Source of the DNA: Parabacteroides faecis | GTDB taxonomy: Bacteria; Bacteroidota; Bacteroidia; Bacteroidales; Tannerellaceae | Direction: 5' to 3' | NCBI RefSeq assembly: GCF_014647375.1 | Contig: NZ_BMPB01000008.1 | Span: forward strand, 124,001-188,000 | Length of the DNA: 64,000 nt | Shown here: positions 1,047 through 9,498 of the stretch, piece after piece | How positions within the stretch are numbered: the stretch's first letter is position 1 | Layout of the letters: each line of letters opens with the position of its first letter | Notes under the pieces: generated by a model | Database searches by the model: none | Told to the model about the DNA's origin: nothing | The model's input: only the letters and a program-made list of their open reading frames with translations | Program-made: the position numbers and the translations under genes

Positions 1047-2501
1047 ATGAAGAAAGCTGATATCGGACTGATTGGTCTCGCCGTGATGGGTGAGAACCTG
1101 GCTCTAAATATGGAAAGCAAAGGTTTTACCGTTGCAGTATATAACCGTAGTTTCCCCGGCGAAGAAGGAGTGGTGGACCGCTTCGTGAACGGCCGTGGAA
1201 AAGGAAAGAATTTTATCGCTACCCATTCGATCGAAGAACTGGTGGATGCCGTGAAGCGTCCCCGCATCATTATGATGATGATCAAGGCCGGTGCTCCGGT
1301 CGACGAAATGATTGAACAGCTCTTGCCTCATATGTCGCCCGGCGACGTGATCATCGACGGAGGCAACTCCGACTTCCATGATACGGAACGCCGTGTGAAA
1401 GAGGTGGAAGCCAAAGGTCTGTATTTTGTCGGATCAGGTATTTCGGGAGGTGAAGAAGGTGCCTTGCACGGCCCTTCTATCATGCCCGGAGGATCTCCCG
1501 AAGCATGGCCCATCGTAAAGGATATTTTACAGAGTATCGCAGCCAAGCTGGATGACGGTAAGCCTTGTTGCCAATGGATCGGCGAAGGCGGTGCCGGGCA
1601 CTTTGTCAAGATGGTGCACAACGGCATCGAGTACGGTGACATGCAGCTGATCTCCGAAGCCTATTCCCTGTTGAAGAACCGGAAAGGCCTGGACAATGAT
1701 GAAATGTCCGTCGTCTTTGAAGAATGGAACAAGGGCGAACTGGATAGTTTCCTGATCGAGATCACCACGAACATACTCCGCTTCCGCGACGAAGACGGCA
1801 AGCCGTTGCTGGATAAGATACTCGACGTTGCCGGCCAGAAAGGAACGGGAAAATGGAGTGCCATCGCCGCAATGGACGAGAACGATCCGTTGACGCTGAT
1901 TACCGAGGCCGTGTACGCCCGTATGCTGTCCGCCCTCTCTGACGAACGCGAAAAGGCTTCCGGCTTGTATCCGGAACCGGTGCAGTTGGGTGAAAACCTG
2001 TATGTGGAAGAGATACGCCAGGCATTGTATGCTGCCAAGCTGATCTCTTATGCGCAGGGATTCTCCCTGATCCGCCGTGCTTCCGAACGTTATGGCTGGA
2101 AACTGGATTTCGGGACGATCGCACAGATCTGGCGTAAGGGTTGCATCATCCGTTCCGTCTTTCTGCAGAAGATCACGGAGGCTTACCGGAAGAATCCGGA
2201 ACTCGAAAACCTGTTGTTCGACGATTTCTTCCGCACCAAGATACAGTCTGCTTTACCTTCCTGGCGTAAAGTCGTTGCGGAAGGTGCCCTGAGCGGTGTC
2301 GCCCTACCGGCCATGAGTTCCGCCCTGAGTTATTTCGACGGGTTGCGTACCCAGAGCTCGGCAGCCAACCTGATACAGGCGCAGCGTGACTATTTCGGTG
2401 CTCACACGTATGAACGGACAGACCGCGACCGTGGTATTTTCTTCCACACCAACTGGACGGGCGAAGGGGGTAATACGGTTTCAGGAACCTATACAGTTTA
2501 A
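1047..2501 (+). CDS. gnd: 6-phosphogluconate dehydrogenase, decarboxylating
   Basis: Cytosolic enzyme that converts 6-phosphogluconate and NADP+ to ribulose 5-phosphate, CO2 and NADPH, the third step of the oxidative pentose phosphate pathway. The 484 residues match the usual length. The N-terminal Rossmann fold shows GLAVMGENLALNM (about residues 10-22). The substrate site shows GGNSDFHDTERR, GPSIMPGG and GGAGHFVKMVHNGIEYGD with the catalytic lysine and the HNGIE signature. The all-helical C-terminal domain contains GTGKWSA and ends in a glycine/threonine-rich tail that in known structures reaches into the partner subunit. It is the first gene of a gnd-zwf-pgl operon; the stop is 3 bp before an in-frame GTG and 18 bp before the ATG of zwf. 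Confidence 0.97.
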   Translation: MKKADIGLIGLAVMGENLALNMESKGFTVAVYNRSFPGEEGVVDRFVNGRGKGKNFIATHSIEELVDAVKRPRIIMMMIKAGAPVDEMIEQLLPHMSPGDVIIDGGNSDFHDTERRVKEVEAKGLYFVGSGISGGEEGALHGPSIMPGGSPEAWPIVKDILQSIAAKLDDGKPCCQWIGEGGAGHFVKMVHNGIEYGDMQLISEAYSLLKNRKGLDNDEMSVVFEEWNKGELDSFLIEITTNILRFRDEDGKPLLDKILDVAGQKGTGKWSAIAAMDENDPLTLITEAVYARMLSALSDEREKASGLYPEPVQLGENLYVEEIRQALYAAKLISYAQGFSLIRRASERYGWKLDFGTIAQIWRKGCIIRSVFLQKITEAYRKNPELENLLFDDFFRTKIQSALPSWRKVVAEGALSGVALPAMSSALSYFDGLRTQSSAANLIQAQRDYFGAHTYERTDRDRGIFFHTNWTGEGGNTVSGTYTV

Positions 2502-2519
2502 CAAGTGGAGGACCGGAGA

Positions 2520-3989
2520 ATGAAAAGAGCAAACGACCAACTACTTGTTATTTTCGGGGCATCGGGCGACCTGACGGGCCGCAAGTTGCTGCCCGCACTT
2601 TTTGAATTGTTCATCGGCGATATGTTGCCCGAACATTTTGCCATACTGGGAGCTGCACGTACAGCGTTTACGGATGATGAGTTCCGTGCCGAACAACGTA
2701 AACATATCCTGGAAGCACGGGGAAATAAGGAAACAAACAGCGCAGATCTGGATAGATTCCTCCAGATACTGTTCTACCTGGCATTCGATTCGACCAAATC
2801 CGCCGAATATGTGAAACTGAAAGACCGTGTACATCTGTTGCTGCAACAAGAGAATATCCCGGACAGGATCATGTATTATCTGGCTACACCGCCGCTGATG
2901 TACGAGCTGGTACCGAAGTACCTGCAGGAAAACGGCATGAACGTGGCGGAATCGGAAGACGGCTGGCGTCGCGTGATCGTCGAGAAGCCTTTCGGTACAA
3001 GCCTGGAGACGGCGCAGGAGCTGAACAAGCATCTCTGCCGCATCTTCGACGAGAACGAGATTTACCGTATCGACCATTACCTGGGTAAGGAGACGGTGCA
3101 GAACATCCTGGTACTCCGTTTCTCCAACGGTATTTTCGAACCGTTATGGAACCGTAATTATGTCGATTCGGTGGAGATCAGCGCATCCGAAACATTGGGC
3201 GTGGAGAACCGCGGTAAATACTATGACGGGGCAGGGGCCCTGCGTGATATGATTCAGAATCACCTCATGCAGCTGATGGCGTTTGCCGCTATGGAATCGC
3301 CCGCCGTGTTCGATCCTGAACCTATCCGCGACGAGATCGTGAAGGTCTTCCGTGCCATCCGTCCTTATACGATCCGCGAGATCAACGAACAGGTGGTCCG
3401 CGGGCAGTACGACGGCTATCGTGAAGAGAAGAATGTCGCGCCGGATTCGAATACGGAAACCTATGTCGGCATGAAGTTCTTCATCGACAACTGGCGTTGG
3501 AGCGGTGTGCCGTTCTACTTCTTTACGGGGAAGAAACTGCCGGAGAAGTCGTCGGAGATCGTTATCCATTTCAAATCGACACCCCATCAGCTTTTTGCCG
3601 GACAATGCTCGGGCAGTTCATGTAACAAGCTGGTGATCCGTATCCAGCCGGACGAGAGCATCACGCTGCGTTTCGGCCTGAAGATGCCGGGTGCCGGATT
3701 CACAGTGAAGCAGGTAGGGATGGAGTTCCGCTACGATTCACTGTCAAAGACCCATTTGCCGGATGCTTACGAGCGTCTGTTGCTGGATGCCATGCTGGGC
3801 GATTCGACCTTGTATGCACGTAGCGACGCTTTGGAAGCCAGCTGGCGCTTTATCGACCCGATCCTGCATCACTGGAAAGAGGAAGGTTCGAAGAATCTCT
3901 TCTTCTACGAACCGGGGCAGAACGGGCCATTGGAAAGAATGATGTTAGGCGCAGACTCAGCAGGAGACTCCTGCGATTCCTGCGGTTAA
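2520..3989 (+). CDS. zwf: Glucose-6-phosphate 1-dehydrogenase
   Basis: Oxidises glucose 6-phosphate to 6-phosphogluconolactone, making NADPH; first step of the oxidative pentose phosphate pathway. I chose ATG 2520 over the in-frame GTG at 2505 because a purine-rich GGAGGACCGGAG lies just before it. The 489-residue product shows the NADP loop FGASGDLTGRKLL (about residues 12-24), VEKPFG, and the catalytic RIDHYLGKE at about 183-191 with the active-site His and Lys. The C-terminus ends MMLGADSAGDSCDSCG: the last dozen residues, including two cysteines, look unlike the family and lie against a REP-like palindrome immediately after the stop. This tail may be the product of that insertion. The enzyme core looks intact. 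Confidence 0.96.
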   Translation: MKRANDQLLVIFGASGDLTGRKLLPALFELFIGDMLPEHFAILGAARTAFTDDEFRAEQRKHILEARGNKETNSADLDRFLQILFYLAFDSTKSAEYVKLKDRVHLLLQQENIPDRIMYYLATPPLMYELVPKYLQENGMNVAESEDGWRRVIVEKPFGTSLETAQELNKHLCRIFDENEIYRIDHYLGKETVQNILVLRFSNGIFEPLWNRNYVDSVEISASETLGVENRGKYYDGAGALRDMIQNHLMQLMAFAAMESPAVFDPEPIRDEIVKVFRAIRPYTIREINEQVVRGQYDGYREEKNVAPDSNTETYVGMKFFIDNWRWSGVPFYFFTGKKLPEKSSEIVIHFKSTPHQLFAGQCSGSSCNKLVIRIQPDESITLRFGLKMPGAGFTVKQVGMEFRYDSLSKTHLPDAYERLLLDAMLGDSTLYARSDALEASWRFIDPILHHWKEEGSKNLFFYEPGQNGPLERMMLGADSAGDSCDSCG

Positions 3990-3997
3990 ACAACGTA

Positions 3998-4019
3998 GGG
4001 GCAGTTCGTGAATCGCCCC
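3998..4019. repeat. REP-like imperfect palindrome between zwf and pgl
   Basis: An imperfect palindrome starting GGGGCAGTTC and ending GAATCGCCCC fills the 46-bp gap between zwf and pgl. The outer arms GGGGC/GCCCC pair and the inner GTTC/GAA.. pair with two mismatches. A preceding shorter palindrome CAGGAGACTCCTG (3961-3973 region) lies inside the zwf tail. The composition resembles dispersed short palindromic repeats; whether it is multicopy cannot be seen from one window. It is within the operon, so it may tune mRNA stability rather than end transcription, since no T-run follows. Confidence 0.55.
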
Positions 4020-4035
4020 CTCAAATGAGAAACAT

Positions 4036-4737
4036 ATGAAAATAGAGAATTACAAAGACAACAAGGAGGCTTTGCGGGCTTTGACCAGCCAATTGATGGA
4101 TTATATGGCCCGTAAAGAAGAGCAGACGCCGTTCAACCTGGCTTTGTCGGGTGGCGAGACAGCCAAACAGATGTTTGCTCTATGGGCGGATGAGTATAAA
4201 GATAAGATCGACTGGGAGAACATGCGTTTCTTCTGGGTGGACGAGCGTTGTGTGCCGCCGACAGATGCGGAGAGTAATTTCGGGCATGCGAACAAGTTAT
4301 TGTTCGAACCCCTGCAGATACCTAAAGATCATATTCACCGGATCCACGGTGAAGGAGAACCCGGCACGGAGGCAATGCGTTATTCGCGTATCGTGAAGGA
4401 ATATCTGCCTCGTCACGGGCAGTTCCCGTATTTCGATTGTATCATCCTGGGGATAGGAGGCGATTCGCATACGGCATCCATCTTCCCGGATAATCTGCCG
4501 TTGCTGACGGACAGCCGGAATTATGCCGTATCGCAGCATCCGGAATCGGGACAGTTCCGTATTACGATGACGGGTCCGCTTATCCTGAACGGTTCGCCGC
4601 TGCTTGTCCCCGTGTTGGGTAAAGGCAAGGCGGCTGCGATAGAGGAGTTGAAGCAGGGGTATTCGGCTACGAATGCAACACCGGCTGCTTATATCCTGTC
4701 GCATGCGGTAGATTCGATCGTTTATACGACATTGTGA
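4036..4737 (+). CDS. pgl: 6-phosphogluconolactonase
   Basis: Hydrolyses 6-phosphogluconolactone, the product of zwf, to 6-phosphogluconate, the substrate of gnd; with the two genes before it the oxidative branch is complete in one operon. The 233 residues match the DevB/SOL-type lactonase family, which is related to glucosamine-6-phosphate deaminase. Visible motifs are ALSGGETAKQMFALW (about residues 38-52), FFWVDERCVPP followed by SNFGHANKLL, and LGIGGDSHTASIFP (about 146-159). The ATG follows GAGAAACAT with no clear ribosome binding site, normal in Bacteroidetes. A strong hairpin follows. Confidence 0.95.
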   Translation: MKIENYKDNKEALRALTSQLMDYMARKEEQTPFNLALSGGETAKQMFALWADEYKDKIDWENMRFFWVDERCVPPTDAESNFGHANKLLFEPLQIPKDHIHRIHGEGEPGTEAMRYSRIVKEYLPRHGQFPYFDCIILGIGGDSHTASIFPDNLPLLTDSRNYAVSQHPESGQFRITMTGPLILNGSPLLVPVLGKGKAAAIEELKQGYSATNATPAAYILSHAVDSIVYTTL

Positions 4738-4770
4738 TGAAAGGATAGAAGTCCTTGACTTTATATATAG

Positions 4771-4816
4771 AAAGAGGTGCACCGAAAAGCTTTTTAGGCT
4801 TTCGATGCATCTCTTT
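4771..4816. terminator. Bidirectional terminator between pgl and the surface-lipoprotein operon
   Basis: A hairpin with arms AAAGAGGTGCACCGAAAAGC and GGCTTTCGATGCATCTCTTT (two or three mismatches) lies between two convergent genes. It is A-rich on the left and T-rich on the right, so it can end transcripts from both sides: the pentose phosphate operon from the left and the minus-strand lipoprotein operon from the right. Confidence 0.8.
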
Positions 4817-4845
4817 TGTCGGGTTAATAGCTCTTGACTGGAATG

Positions 4846-6435
4846 TTAAAATGCTCGGATGCAACGCACGCTTTGATTGTTGCTTTTTGTTCTGCTGCTT
4901 AGAGTACCATCGTCAAAGGCTATGGTAAAAGCTGTATTGGCATCGTTCTCCGTGGAGCTCCAATGGGTATTGAGTTTGAATGCGCGTCCTCCTATTGAGG
5001 TCAGCGTGTTATCCAATATTTTATTATTATTTGTATATATCGTATAAAGTTCCGCTAACTCATTCTTTGAAGGAATATACCAGGGACTATTATCACTGCC
5101 GTTTGCTTCATATGCCTGGTTAAACACTTCATATTTCGTTTTAAAGTCAGCATTACTTCCATATTGAGTGAGCAGTTTCTGGGTTCCCAGCGATCCGTCC
5201 GTTTCGTTGCGGATACTTTGTCCGATGGCTCCGACTGCTGATTCATCAACACCCACAGGTCCCCATACCTGAGCTGTAACATAATCTTTCGCCATGATCT
5301 TACCTTTGATCTTGTTTGTAGGATCTATCCAGTACACGACACCGATAGCCGTTTTGCTCTTGTCTATCGTGGTTGACCAGGTATTATCCGAGTAATAGCA
5401 GTCGCCAACCTTCGGGTCCACATCTGTATCTTCCTGTTCGCTCGTCCAGTCTTTATCGATATCCACTGTTATTTTCGTGACAGTTGAAGGCTCGTCTTCG
5501 ATAACCAGCAGGCTTCCGGCAGCATTGACGCAATAGTTGCGTTTGGCTGGGATTCCGGCAGGTAGGGTAATCGTCTTCAGTTTCTTACCGCTTGCCGTTG
5601 TCGCTGTAAACTCCATTGTGATTTCACCTATCGTACCGTCCGCTTCGGCAAAGAAATATTGGGAAAAGATCGTTTTGCAGGAAGAACTCTTGATGGTGAT
5701 ATCCTTGCCGTTATCAAATTCGTTTGCGTTGCCTTTTACTTCCCAGTTCTTTGATCCGGAGACAGTACCGGTGGCCACATTCAGCAAGCTGGGAACGGAG
5801 AATGTGATATTCATGCTATTGAAGTAACCGAAGTTTGTGGCATCCTTTTCCGCAATGGTCAGCTTGGTGAGCGGACGCGTGAGAGTTACTTTCAGGTCAT
5901 TCAGGGCGCTAGCCTCTTTGGTGAAGTTTTTGGAGGCATAAAAAGCGTCGCAGTCTGCGGGAGTTGTGCTTCCTTGTTTCATCTCTACGGCTTGTAATCC
6001 TGTGGAGCCATCTGTTGTATAATATTTGTCGGGATAATGTGCTACACTGTTCAGTCCGGCAATGGTAACAGGTGAGGAAGATGCGGTGGCGTCCATATAA
6101 TCTGCCCAAAGCAACGCCTTGTAGTTCCCGGAATTAGTCAGTTCGAATTCGAAAGTGAGATCGCTTGTTCCGGTGGTGCACATTTCCTGACGCACTTTGA
6201 GTACGGTAAGATCCTCATCCCACACTTCGAGCACGCAACGCAGTTGATGATTTGCCGGTGCAGAGGGCACGGTACGTGTTTCAACCTTTGCAAAATCAGC
6301 AGGCAACGACGCGGTAAGGCTCACCCGACTGCCCGGATTATTGGTTTGCAGCACATTGGCGGGTTCGTCCTGGCTGCACGAGGTTATCAATCCCAGAAGG
6401 GTGATTAACCAAAGATAAAGATTGTTCTTCTTCAT
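4846..6435 (-). CDS. Surface lipoprotein: fimbrillin-like N-terminus with DUF1566-like C-terminus
   Basis: A 529-residue exported lipoprotein. I start at MKKNNLYL (6435) rather than the ATG four codons upstream; the signal peptide ends at lipobox LITSC (Cys about residue 20) followed by SQDE, consistent with the acidic surface-export signal of Bacteroidetes lipoproteins. Residues about 45-330 resemble the first domain of the next gene upstream, with LRCVLEVWDED, ALLWADY and the RPLTKL motif typical of fimbrillin/FimB/Mfa2-like proteins and the DUF6562-type family (from memory). Residues about 345-529 form a DUF1566/C-type-lectin-like module: WYIPSKNELAEL, HWSSTEND and the terminal QSVRCIRAF. 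Such modules bind ligands at tips of surface structures. It is the last gene of a four-gene minus-strand operon. Ligand unknown. Confidence 0.8.
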   Translation of the reverse strand: MKKNNLYLWLITLLGLITSCSQDEPANVLQTNNPGSRVSLTASLPADFAKVETRTVPSAPANHQLRCVLEVWDEDLTVLKVRQEMCTTGTSDLTFEFELTNSGNYKALLWADYMDATASSSPVTIAGLNSVAHYPDKYYTTDGSTGLQAVEMKQGSTTPADCDAFYASKNFTKEASALNDLKVTLTRPLTKLTIAEKDATNFGYFNSMNITFSVPSLLNVATGTVSGSKNWEVKGNANEFDNGKDITIKSSSCKTIFSQYFFAEADGTIGEITMEFTATTASGKKLKTITLPAGIPAKRNYCVNAAGSLLVIEDEPSTVTKITVDIDKDWTSEQEDTDVDPKVGDCYYSDNTWSTTIDKSKTAIGVVYWIDPTNKIKGKIMAKDYVTAQVWGPVGVDESAVGAIGQSIRNETDGSLGTQKLLTQYGSNADFKTKYEVFNQAYEANGSDNSPWYIPSKNELAELYTIYTNNNKILDNTLTSIGGRAFKLNTHWSSTENDANTAFTIAFDDGTLSSRTKSNNQSVRCIRAF

Positions 6436-6480
6436 TGTTTCTAACATTTTGATGTTTAATTATTATATTTTGTTCGTCGA

Positions 6481-7506
6481 TCATTTGAGCAGACCGTCGA
6501 GGTCTATGTCTATATTTCCTTCAAAATCATCGTCAATATCCACGCCTCCTTGCATCTCGTTGGTGAGGAAACGGGCACGGACAGTGGTGAGATGTCCACG
6601 GCAGTAGGGCACTTCGAGGCCGGTAGTGCGTGCGACGACCGTACCTCTTTCATCCTGTATCTCTATCGAGAGCTGGACGAACGATTCCATGCCGTTCACA
6701 AATATGTAGTCTGTCCCGATACTACATTCCTCTGCGCCGTCCGTGGGAATAGTGAGCGGGACGGTGTATTGCACTCCCGTCTGCGAATCGGCAGGCTTAC
6801 CCGACAGGACGTTGAATACGGTTGGCAGATAGAAGCCGTAAGCGAATGTGACGTTGAAGGCTTTGCCTCCGGACCGTTGTTTGCGGGTCTTGCGCAGAAA
6901 GTCCTTTACGTCCGTAGCGATCAGTTCATATTTTGCCAGCGGACGGACCATATCCACCGATACCTGCACTTTAGCGTTCCATTCATCCCGGTAGGGACGC
7001 AGGTCGAGTGGTGTAGTTCCGTAGAGGCAATCCCGGTAGTCGGTGCTACCTGTATAGGGAACGGTACAACCTACGTATTGTAAATCCTCCGTGTCGTAAT
7101 ACAGGTCGGTGCCTGAGTTTGCTTTCACGTAGTCGGTCCATACGGCGAGAGTGTACTCCACGGCATGCAGGCGGAGATTGATAGGAAGGGAGATTTGTTT
7201 GTTTTCAGTTTCGGCTTCATCCAGTATCGTTACTTGGCGTGTTTCGGCATGTCCGTCTCTCCGGGCTTCGATGATGAAGCGGCGTCGGTAATCGGAAGTA
7301 GCTTTCGTGGTTCCGGTCCGGACGTTCTTTTGTGTGATGATTTCGAGCGGAACGAGTTCGAGGTCGAGTGTCACTTCTGTGTTGATTTGTACCAGTGTGG
7401 GGTCGATACCCTCTTCACCTTCTTCGGTTATCGTGGGATAATCGTGTACGCAGCTGCCCAGCATGGAGAGTAACATGAACAACAGGATGGAATATTGTTT
7501 CTTCAT
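6481..7506 (-). CDS. Fimbrillin-like surface lipoprotein (DUF6562-type/FimB-Mfa2-like)
   Basis: A 341-residue lipoprotein with signal peptide MKKQYSILLFMLLSMLGSC (lipobox LGSC, Cys about 19) then a charged, glutamate-rich stretch EEGEEG. The body shares motifs with the neighbouring 529-residue lipoprotein: RRRFIIEARRDG, YTLAVWTDYVKA, YRDCLYG, DMVRPLAKYELI. These are typical of Bacteroidales fimbrillin-like superfamily domains, which fold as transthyretin-like beta sandwiches and polymerise or anchor pili. The acidic C-terminus VDIDDDFEGNIDIDLDG is unusual and could bind calcium. It lies 6 bp downstream of the DUF3575 gene and 45 bp upstream of its paralogue, so the three are probably co-transcribed. 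Being a pilus anchor or accessory subunit is inference. Confidence 0.75.
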   Translation of the reverse strand: MKKQYSILLFMLLSMLGSCVHDYPTITEEGEEGIDPTLVQINTEVTLDLELVPLEIITQKNVRTGTTKATSDYRRRFIIEARRDGHAETRQVTILDEAETENKQISLPINLRLHAVEYTLAVWTDYVKANSGTDLYYDTEDLQYVGCTVPYTGSTDYRDCLYGTTPLDLRPYRDEWNAKVQVSVDMVRPLAKYELIATDVKDFLRKTRKQRSGGKAFNVTFAYGFYLPTVFNVLSGKPADSQTGVQYTVPLTIPTDGAEECSIGTDYIFVNGMESFVQLSIEIQDERGTVVARTTGLEVPYCRGHLTTVRARFLTNEMQGGVDIDDDFEGNIDIDLDGLLK

Positions 7507-7512
7507 GGTCGC

Positions 7513-8166
7513 TTACTTTTTTAAGTTGAACCGGTAGACAATCGACAGACCTACACGTGTGATGCCCCAATAGTTCCGGGTGTGCGTGTCGATGCATGCG
7601 CCGTTGTCTATATTATAATAGGTGTCGTATTTCATGTTGGCATAACCGGCGCCGAGGGTAAATTCTCCTGCCCAATGTTCATTGAACGGCAACAGATAAC
7701 CGTAACTGATGCCTGCACCCACGAACGGACGATCGGTATCCTGATAGCGGTCGCGGTTCCACCGGACATTGAACCAGCCCATGTGCGCATGAATACCGAA
7801 GAAGTGTCCTCTGCCAGGCTTGGAAAGCCAGTAACGCCCTTCAGGTTGGATGACAAAGGTTTTTACAGCATGCTGGCTACCGATATGCCACGGACACCAT
7901 AATACGGGTAATTCTACGGAAACATGTTTCGTGATTTGCACGTCTGCCGCCATGTTCATAATCGTTCCTGCCCAAGCTGCCAGGTTGGTTTTTACGGCAA
8001 GGTATCTATTCGCCGTAGGAACCGGAGCAGTAGGAGAGATATTGCCAATCGCTTTGTCGGATGGAGGCAGAGCGTTTGCTATTGTCGTGATGAAGATCAT
8101 ACAAGCGGAAAATAGTGCGGAGATGATGTTGCGGAGTGTTTGGGATGGAATAAGTCGTGTTGCCAT
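7513..8166 (-). CDS. DUF3575-family exported protein
   Basis: A 217-residue protein with a hydrophobic N-terminal segment (about residues 10-32) ending near ANALPPS, a likely signal peptide. The rest matches the Bacteroidales DUF3575 family: RYLAVKTNLAAWAGTIMNMAADVQ, SVELPVLWCPWHIG, FVIQPEGRYWLSKPG, FFGIHAHMGWFNVRW, and a last beta-strand ending IVYRFNLKK with a C-terminal-type aromatic pattern of small outer-membrane barrels. Family members sit next to fimbrial genes in Bacteroides and Parabacteroides, and here too it precedes two fimbrillin-like lipoproteins. Its reading frame stays open upstream past the ATG into the HU-like gene, see the frameshift finding. Confidence 0.8.
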   Translation of the reverse strand: MATRLIPSQTLRNIISALFSACMIFITTIANALPPSDKAIGNISPTAPVPTANRYLAVKTNLAAWAGTIMNMAADVQITKHVSVELPVLWCPWHIGSQHAVKTFVIQPEGRYWLSKPGRGHFFGIHAHMGWFNVRWNRDRYQDTDRPFVGAGISYGYLLPFNEHWAGEFTLGAGYANMKYDTYYNIDNGACIDTHTRNYWGITRVGLSIVYRFNLKK

Positions 8167-8201
8167 ATATATACGTAGTGTGTTTGAATAAAGGGAATCG
8201 T

Positions 8202-8606
8202 TTATCCGGAGACCGGATGTGAGCGTATCTGGGTGTCGGATGCGGTGATGATTGTTGGAGGTGAGTGGGATAACACGAATGTTGATTTTATTCTTCGTAG
8301 GATCGATTTAGCCTTCGGTCCTATAAAGGCACCGTCAACACCGAGTGAGTTGGTTGCAAAACCAAATTCTACGGTAGAAGCAGAGTATAACTTATCCTTT
8401 GCAACGTCCATCAGATCGTTGTAGGTGGTTCTCAATTCGGAAGCAGTGAATTTACTTTTACCTTTGGCGGCGATCTGACAAAGGTTGTCGATAAAGCGGC
8501 GTGCCACGTAGGTAATATTCAATGTGAAGTCGTCTTCACACTCTGTCAGCATGTTAGCGACGAGGTTGCCGGTGATGCTACGTTTCTTTGGTTCATTTGT
8601 AGCCAT
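8202..8606 (-). CDS. HU-like DNA-binding domain protein, probably frameshifted
   Basis: The 134-residue ORF begins MATNEPKKRSITGNLVANML and resembles the N-terminal HU/IHF-like domain of the Bacteroidetes DUF4469-type family, in which the pattern ITGxLxxNxLT..DD..., an alpha-helical dimer arm, and a segment GVDGAFIGPKA are expected. After GAFIGPKAK the frame turns into basic, unfamiliar sequence and stops. In the next frame the same DNA reads IDPTKNKINIRVIPLTS, which looks like the family's expected beta-strand continuation. One missing A in the AAA at about 8308-8312 would join them. It is the first gene after the inverted repeat and would be the first to be transcribed if the promoter segment flipped. 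Confidence 0.6.
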   Translation of the reverse strand: MATNEPKKRSITGNLVANMLTECEDDFTLNITYVARRFIDNLCQIAAKGKSKFTASELRTTYNDLMDVAKDKLYSASTVEFGFATNSLGVDGAFIGPKAKSILRRIKSTFVLSHSPPTIITASDTQIRSHPVSG

Positions 8607-8623
8607 AATCTTTGAGATTTAAT

Positions 8624-8640
8624 TAGTTCGTATAGAACTA
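8624..8640 (+). repeat. Left inverted repeat of putative invertible segment
   Basis: TAGTTCGTATAGAACTA, 18 bp upstream of the ATG of the minus-strand HU-like gene. Its arms AGTTC/GAACT are themselves palindromic around a 5-bp asymmetric centre GTATA, the form expected of a recombinase site. The exact reverse complement occurs at 8910-8926. Confidence 0.75.
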
Positions 8641-8886
8641 TGTCTTAATAAAAATAGGCGTGCGTTTTGAAATGAAAAACATACTAAAAAATGTGTTGAT
8701 CCTTTTTTTACCACCTCCAAAAACATAAAGTACCTACTGGGTTTATATAAAATTAAGTTTTTGGCAATTATCGTATTGGTACCCGATACAATTCCGCTTT
8801 CCTGACATAAAAGGTCTATTCTTTGCAAAAACACATACTTGCTTTATAAATTAACGGCTTTGTAGAGGTTGTGTTGATTTATTTCA

Positions 8887-8894
8887 TACCTTTG
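8887..8894 (+). promoter_or_regulatory. Promoter -7 element TACCTTTG inside the invertible segment
   Basis: Perfect match to the Bacteroidetes consensus TAnnTTTG. Candidate -33 TTG elements lie at 8859-8862 or 8869-8871, with spacings of 24 and 15 bp that are not ideal. The transcript would start near 8901 and cross the right repeat into the short ORFs at 8926 and 9051. Confidence 0.6.
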
Positions 8895-8909
8895 AAAGCA
8901 TAATTAACC

Positions 8910-8926
8910 TAGTTCTATACGAACTA
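8910..8926 (-). repeat. Right inverted repeat of putative invertible segment
   Basis: TAGTTCTATACGAACTA, exact reverse complement of the copy at 8624-8640. Both copies are followed on the plus strand by TGTC, so five flanking bases are directly repeated while the core is inverted. Confidence 0.75.
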
Positions 8927-9039
8927 TGTCCTTCCCTTTTAACCATAAAAACGGTTTATCTGTAAAAGAATTAAAAAAACATCGTTCTACCGACAACAAT
9001 TATCGTCTACAGGCTGTTAGAATAGTGTATCAACAATAA
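8926..9039 (+). CDS. Possible 37-residue peptide starting at the right inverted repeat
   Basis: An ORF whose ATG shares its first base with the last base of the inverted repeat. It reads MSFPFNHKNGLSVKEL and continues lysine/arginine-rich to IVYQQ. It would be the first product of the rightward transcript, 25 nt after its predicted start. I recognise no family. The left repeat is followed by the same ATGTC but the frame stops after two codons. It could equally be leader sequence. Low confidence. Confidence 0.25.
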   Translation: MSFPFNHKNGLSVKELKKHRSTDNNYRLQAVRIVYQQ

Positions 9040-9050
9040 AATCAACGGTT

Positions 9051-9233
9051 ATGACGAAGATAATGCAAACACTGTGGGACGAGAGCTCGGATCTGACCGA
9101 CGAAGCGATGGCTTCGGATGCCTCTGTCCTGTCTAACACCTATACAGCAGGTGATATTAAAGACGTTACGGAAACAATAGAGGGCGGCAATCAGGAAGCT
9201 GATGACCTGAACGAAGAAAATGACGTCCCCTGA
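9051..9233 (+). CDS. Small acidic protein, unknown function
   Basis: A 60-residue ORF starting MTKIMQTLWDESSDLTDE, 11 bp after the stop of the preceding short ORF. It is strongly acidic (many Asp and Glu, very few basic residues), has no signal peptide or membrane segment, and ends EENDVP. It is followed by a long hairpin with a T-run, so it has the layout of a short transcription unit driven by the promoter at 8887. I recognise no homologue; a DNA-mimic or an inhibitor of the HU-like neighbour is speculation. Confidence 0.45.
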   Translation: MTKIMQTLWDESSDLTDEAMASDASVLSNTYTAGDIKDVTETIEGGNQEADDLNEENDVP

Positions 9234-9242
9234 CATACTAAT

Positions 9243-9359
9243 TCCGGGAAAGATCGCGCACTAAGAGCTTGTTCTTACGCAAACACATGTACCCCTTTTA
9301 ATTACAGGATGTATCCCCTTTTAAAAAAACGAAGCTCTGATCTTTCCTGGGATTTTTTT
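9243..9359 (+). terminator. Long-loop terminator after the small acidic ORF
   Basis: Arms TCCGGGAAAGATC (9243-9255) and GATCTTTCCTGGGA (9339-9352), plus an inner pair AGAGCTT (9264-9270) and AAGCTCT (9332-9338), followed by seven T. The loop of about 60 bases contains the two CCCCTTTTA near-repeats. Confidence 0.65.
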
Positions 9360-9498
9360 ATTCTTTCCTTTCATATAGCCTAGCGTGTATCCGAATTTAA
9401 GGAGTGACTTTGTAGTCCGTTATATACTGAAACCTGCGTTTGGTCTATTATTATCCCCGTGTTTGTCTATTAATCTGCAACGCCATGCTTTGTTCGAA

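Follow-up and report, generated by a model that had tools for sequence, protein, structure and literature searches.

Inverted repeats and the enclosed promoter

The question raised by this locus was whether a gene-free segment in front of a small surface operon of Parabacteroides faecis can be inverted to turn the operon on and off, and which recombinase would do so. The window, that is, the whole stretch of 64,000 nucleotides that was analysed, was compared with its source genome (6.66 Mb, 33 contigs) and with 39 genomes of the genus. Our reading, which we hold with good confidence, is that positions 8624-8926 form a promoter inverton flipped in trans by a tyrosine recombinase, with a protein encoded on contig C3 as the candidate enzyme, serving 14 paired sites.

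The perfect 17-bp inverted repeat that the sequence-only reading had described around a gene-free segment was confirmed. The left copy occupied 8624-8640 on the forward strand and the right copy 8910-8926 on the reverse strand, and they matched at 17 of 17 positions. Both held a 15-bp core with the architecture AGTTC-N5-GAACT, located at 8625-8639 (AGTTCGTATAGAACT) and 8911-8925, and each core was itself a partial palindrome. The 271 bp between the two cores (8640-8910), which would be the invertible segment, contained no likely gene. The arms could be extended by a repeat-finding tool to 20 nt at 95% identity with one mismatch (8624-8643 and 8907-8926). One perfect 17-bp inverted repeat with copies no more than 600 bp apart was present in the window, compared with 0.017 expected per resampled window on the basis of 60 Markov-1 resamples. 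When AGTTCNTANNGAACT was searched with at most one mismatch, the only two matches in the window were the cores at 8625-8639 and 8911-8925; at least two such matches occurred in 5 of 100 shuffles. A repetition of TGTC beside both sites had been taken as a further sign of a site-specific system. It was present, but it belonged to a weak extended arm (A.63, T.45, G.62 and T.52 over 196 arms). Viral contigs, scanned for exact 31-bp matches, held no further copy of the segment, and Rfam gave no match anywhere in the 64-kb window.

The segment was scanned in both directions, and its sole TAnnTTTG was the -7 promoter element TACCTTTG at 8887-8894 on the forward strand. It pointed right, the OFF orientation for the operon, from a position 16 bp inside the right core. 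No left-pointing TAnnTTTG was therefore found in the present orientation, in agreement with the earlier claim. The same claim had spoken of a single perfect -7 promoter. The match was perfect for the -7 element only, since the upstream TTTG was 28 bases from the -7 element rather than about 26 (counted by hand), which placed the -33 element off the canonical spacing. A second, isolated copy of TACCTTTG was found at 8459-8466 within the HU-like gene. Two features of Bacteroidales promoter invertons, inverted repeats around an intergenic segment and an outward-facing TAnnTTTG within it, were present.

The surface operon and the proposed switch

The first gene on the left was confirmed at the distance given before, with the ATG of an HU-like gene at 8606, 18 bp from the left core. 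Four genes on the reverse strand followed one another from this point, described earlier as HU-like, DUF3575 and two lipoproteins. The HU domain of the 134-aa leader (8202-8606) was below the Pfam cut-off (E 0.0019). The leader was truncated, and its first 100 aa matched relatives that were mostly 255-269 aa long. Sixteen relatives were aligned; 14 fell into this range and two were short (145 and 85 aa), and both full-length relatives scanned with Pfam carried HU and DUF4469. The second gene encoded a DUF3575 protein (7513-8166, Pfam 2e-44). The third encoded a DUF6562 lipoprotein-like protein (6481-7506, Pfam 1e-98) with a lipobox recognised by eye, possibly a pilus subunit, and the fourth a DUF6562 lipoprotein-like protein with a C-terminal Lcl_C domain (4846-6447, Pfam 4e-11 and 3e-9), possibly a tip protein or adhesin. 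DUF3575, DUF6562 and the Lcl-type domain together may point to a fimbria-like or pilus function. With regard to the lipoprotein pilins (anchor, stalk and tip) of type V pili, the locus offered two lipoprotein-like genes with DUF6562, of which one also had Lcl_C. Searches of PDB sequences with both lipoproteins returned no match at E 1 or better. For the first of them, a fold predicted from the single sequence was unusable (mean pLDDT 36.8).

We propose that a trans-acting tyrosine recombinase would recognise AGTTC-N5-GAACT and flip the 271-bp segment by recombination between the inverted copies, inside their 5-bp spacer. In the present OFF orientation, the promoter would face right, towards a 60-aa gene. 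A flip would set it 16 bp inside the left repeat, from where it would drive the leader together with the DUF3575-DUF6562-DUF6562/Lcl operon. All 14 paired sites would be served by this one enzyme, for which the 387-aa protein encoded at G000:C3:454683-455843 is the candidate.

A family of AGTTC sites across the genome

A search of the genome for other such sites had been proposed as a check, and it gave 38 sites for AGTTCNNANNGAACT, compared with one in the reversed control. Twenty-nine of them fell into 14 inverted groups, defined by neighbouring sites less than 1.3 kb apart, and nine were single; one group had three sites. Thirteen of the groups were examined for genes, with C13:125356-125586 left out. 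TAnnTTTG was present 14-19 bp inside one repeat in nine of these 13. In seven groups, the leading gene next to the switch encoded a SusC-type receptor, as judged by Pfam (L096, L099, L100, L101, L103, L104 and L106). Other first genes encoded a FecR-type protein, an ECF sigma factor, an outer-membrane efflux protein and an HU-like protein before a CsgG-domain protein. The remaining groups were a BACON/DUF4493 operon, whose segment contained an AraC-type gene, and the window locus itself. A set of Parabacteroides surface genes thus shares one recombination site, and because this site is common to the set, probably one enzyme.

Two of the loci had unusual arrangements. At L095:2931-4125, the AGTTC pair enclosed 1,165 bp holding an AraC-type regulator gene, so that the regulator itself would flip. 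At L106:5065-5260, three identical AGTTC cores were found before a SusC gene, of which one was a direct duplicate at a distance of 34 bp.

Site counts were compared across the 39 genomes of the genus. Counts of 37, 33 and 28 were obtained in G019, G022 and G024, compared with 1-2 in the control, and most small genomes had counts at or below the control, giving a total of 293 vs 177. There was no excess in G016 (8 sites vs 8 in the reversed control) or G017 (5 vs 10). The count followed genome size (rho 0.63).

Spacer identity within pairs

Fifty adjacent pairs were collected from the own genome and its relatives, some from close relatives (e.g. L011 and L020), so that not all were independent. 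Forty-nine were inverted, and the fiftieth was a direct duplicate beside one of those. The five spacer bases were identical within the pair in all 49 inverted pairs, and 32 different spacers occurred among the pairs when strand was ignored. The arms differed in four of the 50 adjacent pairs, the spacers in none. Within-pair identity was 0.50 and 0.58 at the positions next to the core, and 0.16-0.58 over the 24 flanking columns. Since the spacers matched within pairs yet varied between them, the crossover would lie inside the spacer, which points to a tyrosine recombinase, probably acting in trans. In serine invertases, the exchange involves an overlap of 2 bp, which does not demand identity over a 5-base spacer.

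Candidate recombinases

The genome contained 22 tyrosine recombinases above the family cut-off and four serine recombinase matches. None was in the window, as the sequence-only reading had stated; the PF00589 and PF00239 matches on contig C8 were all outside C8:124001-188000. That reading had also suggested looking for a recombinase next to one of the sites. A candidate was found in the genome, but no tyrosine recombinase was within 10 kb of any own-genome site, and the nearest (L069) was 10,674 bp away.

The candidate for the AGTTC sites is the 387-aa tyrosine recombinase L062 on contig C3, which has arm-binding, SAM-like and catalytic domains. It was flanked by a rarA-type ATPase gene on one side and SusD/SusC-type genes on the other. 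L062, L067, L070 and the serine enzymes were profiled over the 39 genomes. A full-length L062 orthologue was present in 19 of them, including 13 of the 14 with at least five sites, and was absent from 19 of the 25 with fewer sites. In G012 and G042, the orthologue adjoined a SusD/SusC pair (with Pfam support in G012), followed by AGTTC sites and more SusC-like genes, in a shufflon-like arrangement. The orthologue was about 5 kb from an AGTTC pair in four (G012, G042, G016 and G017) of the nine genomes that had L062 and fully listed sites, and these four may be two sister-species pairs. The chance of such proximity was about 0.013 and 0.014 for G012 and G016, the two for which it was computed. 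In the own genome, L062 was far from the AGTTC sites, the nearest on the same contig being 244,627 bp away, and G004 had 11 sites and no L062 orthologue.

Another of the 22 tyrosine recombinases may instead act on a real switch, e.g. the 406-aa L070 (C8:253492), a reading that we regard as unlikely. L070 or orthologues 93-97% identical to it occurred in eight of the 39 genomes, seven of which had at least five sites. It was missing from seven of the 14 site-rich genomes, however, and copies so nearly identical in distant species suggest a mobile integrase. Six further tyrosine recombinases (L072-L077) adjoined invertons with different repeats in their neighbourhoods (L088-L093) and were for this reason set aside as the AGTTC recombinase. 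Another match, L108, was uninformative in the profile, since 36 of the 39 genomes had a match to it or to a paralogue.

Two side observations were made on these enzymes. The six recombinases at L088-L093, each beside inverted repeats of CTTATTT...AAATAAG-like or GTCTCTTGGTAAGAGAC type, represent a second switch class in the genome. At L061 and L063, a tyrosine recombinase was located between genes that appeared by eye to be hsdS, which may be a restriction-specificity shufflon.

It seems improbable that the enzyme of a real switch is an Mpi-type serine recombinase (G000:C2:147145 or C7:327450) and not the C3 tyrosine recombinase. Likely orthologues of both serine enzymes (at least 42% identity for C2 and at least 48% for C7) were found in the same 14 genomes; 13 of these belonged to the 14 with at least five sites, and 24 of the 25 low-site genomes were without them. 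This fitted the count profile slightly better than L062, with low-site absence in 24 rather than 19 of 25. However, a 2-bp overlap would not require the five-base spacer identity seen in 49 of 49 pairs, and AGTTC/AGTCC-type sites were found in none of the flanks of about 1.5 kb at 24 serine loci. In addition, G002, which carries the ON locus described below, had neither serine orthologue but had L062; this genome is a 90% complete MAG, in which an absence is weak evidence. We retain L062 acting in trans as the candidate, with the two serine enzymes as rivals.

Orientation across related loci

The layout had been likened to that of Bacteroides phase switches. This was backed by the related HU-led operons, by one ON locus among them, and by opposite SusC-linked segments in two species. 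All 17 HU-led operons, from six Parabacteroides genomes, had an AGTTC or near-AGTTC pair, with a few arms varying by one base. In each of the 17, the distance from the start of the proximal core to the ATG was 32-35 nt, and one repeat had a -7 element 14-19 bp on its inner side. The own genome also has a third HU-like gene (L097), outside this set, whose segment had no consensus promoter. Sixteen of the 17 loci, including the window, were OFF. The ON locus (L007/L086), with the promoter 16 bp inside the proximal repeat, was in G002, the MAG of Parabacteroides sp. RGIG9024 from water deer rectum. It was a paralogue of the window operon and not the same locus.

Related locus pairs with matchable segments numbered 21, of which 19 had the same orientation and two the opposite. 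One opposite pair was the SusC-linked L106 of the own genome and L159 of P. gordonii, whose SusC proteins were 80% identical over 333 aa. The segments aligned at 79 of 146 columns when reversed vs 59 of 155 as they stood; the left flanks were unmatched, so the two may be paralogues. The second pair (L165/L167) was ambiguous because L165 has SusC-type flanks on both sides. An automatic census of 47 invertons with a crude client rule classed 26 as OFF and 7 as ON; the other 14 received no promoter call. Inspection showed at least three of these ON calls (L083, L015 and L106) to be wrong, the HU or SusC gene being on the other side, and the census missed the ON locus L007/L086 because of its variant arms; the orientation count here rests on the 17 HU loci. 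A search of relatives for the opposite orientation had been proposed, and one orientation in all of them had been named as the finding that would speak against a switch. An ON paralogue and an opposite SusC-linked segment were found, so the relatives did not share one orientation, although 16 of 17 loci were OFF and the ON case was not this locus.

A fossil switch, with intact repeats, a segment locked OFF and a decaying operon, appears very unlikely to us. The truncated HU leader means that the operon may be decaying, and the 16 OFF loci among 17 would fit such a state. However, the repeats and the promoter were intact and the three downstream genes were open. An OFF bias is also usual in such systems: in rich medium, roughly one B. 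thetaiotaomicron cell in 1,000 expresses BT1927 (PMC12548429), and in B. fragilis the promoter of one capsule was OFF in three genome sequences (PMC3090145). A role of the palindromes as binding sites of a regulator or as a structural element, without any recombination, is hardly credible, although each core is partly palindromic, since binding sites need no spacers that match within pairs and differ between loci and would not yield opposite segment orientations. The reading as a promoter inverton was thus kept, and the segment at 8624-8926 itself would flip.

Comparison with known inversion systems

The switch appears to belong to a known kind, the Tsr0667-type inversion, with some unusual local features. 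The consensus of Tsr0667 sites, in a paper of 2009, is reportedly AGTYYYN4GDACT. The right core of the window on the forward strand (AGTTCTATACGAACT) fits this reported consensus and has the same 15-bp architecture. In B. fragilis, a single tyrosine recombinase, Tsr0667 (BF0667), controls three SusC/SusD shufflons and a further nine regions in trans (PMC4747536; PMC11852207). The present system was similar in that one site family was found before SusC genes and others, for which we infer a single enzyme, and in that in G012 and G042 the candidate adjoined SusC/SusD genes that have such sites. It may differ in that the clients here include HU-led surface operons, and the likeness described here concerns sites and layout. 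A literature search on AGTTC/GAACT repeats in Bacteroides inversion gave nothing on the subject.

Other switches were more distant. In the S-layer switch BT1927 of B. thetaiotaomicron, which is mostly OFF in culture, inverted repeats likewise flank a promoter ahead of a gene for a surface protein (PMC12548429); the client differs. The capsule switches of Parabacteroides distasonis are invertible promoters in the same genus (PMC12118408), and their repeat (GCTACTYRGNRAGTAGC) and capsule clients differ. Among the hCom2 invertons, the likely clients of group 131 are a TonB-dependent receptor/SusD and those of groups 137, 112 and 122 are fimbrillin (PMC11892184). These groups were likened to the present switch by their client genes. 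E. coli fimS differs in that promoter, repeats and pilus are all unrelated to the present switch, and its recombinases are encoded locally. As in the present proposal, a tyrosine integrase, FimB, inverts an element that precedes a pilus operon in that system (PMC9993118), whereas a pilus role is a possibility here.

Probable insertion site and the 60-aa gene

The operon and the switch together probably form an inserted unit (4738-8990), across which homology to three relatives was lost and then regained. Homology of the window ended at 4730-4735, on the pgl side, and resumed at 8990-8992, so that about 4.25 kb in the window stood against 14, 14 and 103 bp in the relatives. In these three (L022, L023 and L004 in G019, G022 and G024), the 60-aa gene came directly after pgl (PF01182 in the window), and in a fourth (L006 in G004) it had another left neighbour. 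Insertion is the simpler explanation compared with loss in three relatives. This documents a switch-operon unit seemingly inserted beside pentose phosphate genes.

The conserved 60-aa gene (9051-9233, forward strand) was downstream of the promoter as now oriented and may be a second output, transcribed from that promoter. It differed from L022 mostly at third codon positions (33 of 53 differences), which argues that the gene is real. It was followed by a terminator-like hairpin and T-run (9240-9360, forward strand, z -3.57). In the hairpin loop, at 9286-9322, two imperfect copies of about ATGTAYCCCCTTTT were observed; similar copies were present in L022, L023 and L004 and not in L006. A gnd-zwf-pgl cluster (1047-4737, Pfam) was located directly before the operon-switch unit. 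Oxidative pentose phosphate mutants of B. thetaiotaomicron are reported to have altered S-layer-based phage resistance (PMC12548429), and the pentose phosphate neighbourhood here is probably a coincidence.

Leader and cargo at related loci

We suggest tentatively that the AGTTC switch and the HU-DUF4469 leader form a conserved Parabacteroides expression module with varied, likely surface cargo, inserted at varied chromosomal sites and OFF in 16 of 17 loci. At some sites, the promoter in its other direction would serve a second gene, as a two-way toggle. The HU-DUF4469 leader, which is little studied in the literature, is hereby tied to predicted switchable surface proteins. The cargo behind the leader was surveyed at nine loci (L079-L087). 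At L079, L080, L082, L084 and L085, the leader preceded large proteins marked by GLUG, by InlB-type repeats and/or by DUF6383 at the end; a BspA-type LRR protein was found at L086, and a small operon with a GLUG protein at L087. L081 and L083, the same place in two species, had large proteins without a Pfam match. DUF6383 occurred at five cargo loci, with three matches below or near the Pfam cut-off, and the cargo was thus partly related. In Treponema denticola, TDE_2259 is listed as PF14848 plus PF14734, and the BspA/LrrA gene TDE_2258 is adjacent by number (PMC12724145). At L079, a divergent DUF3575 - DUF3868/OmpA pair was observed on the other side of the switch.
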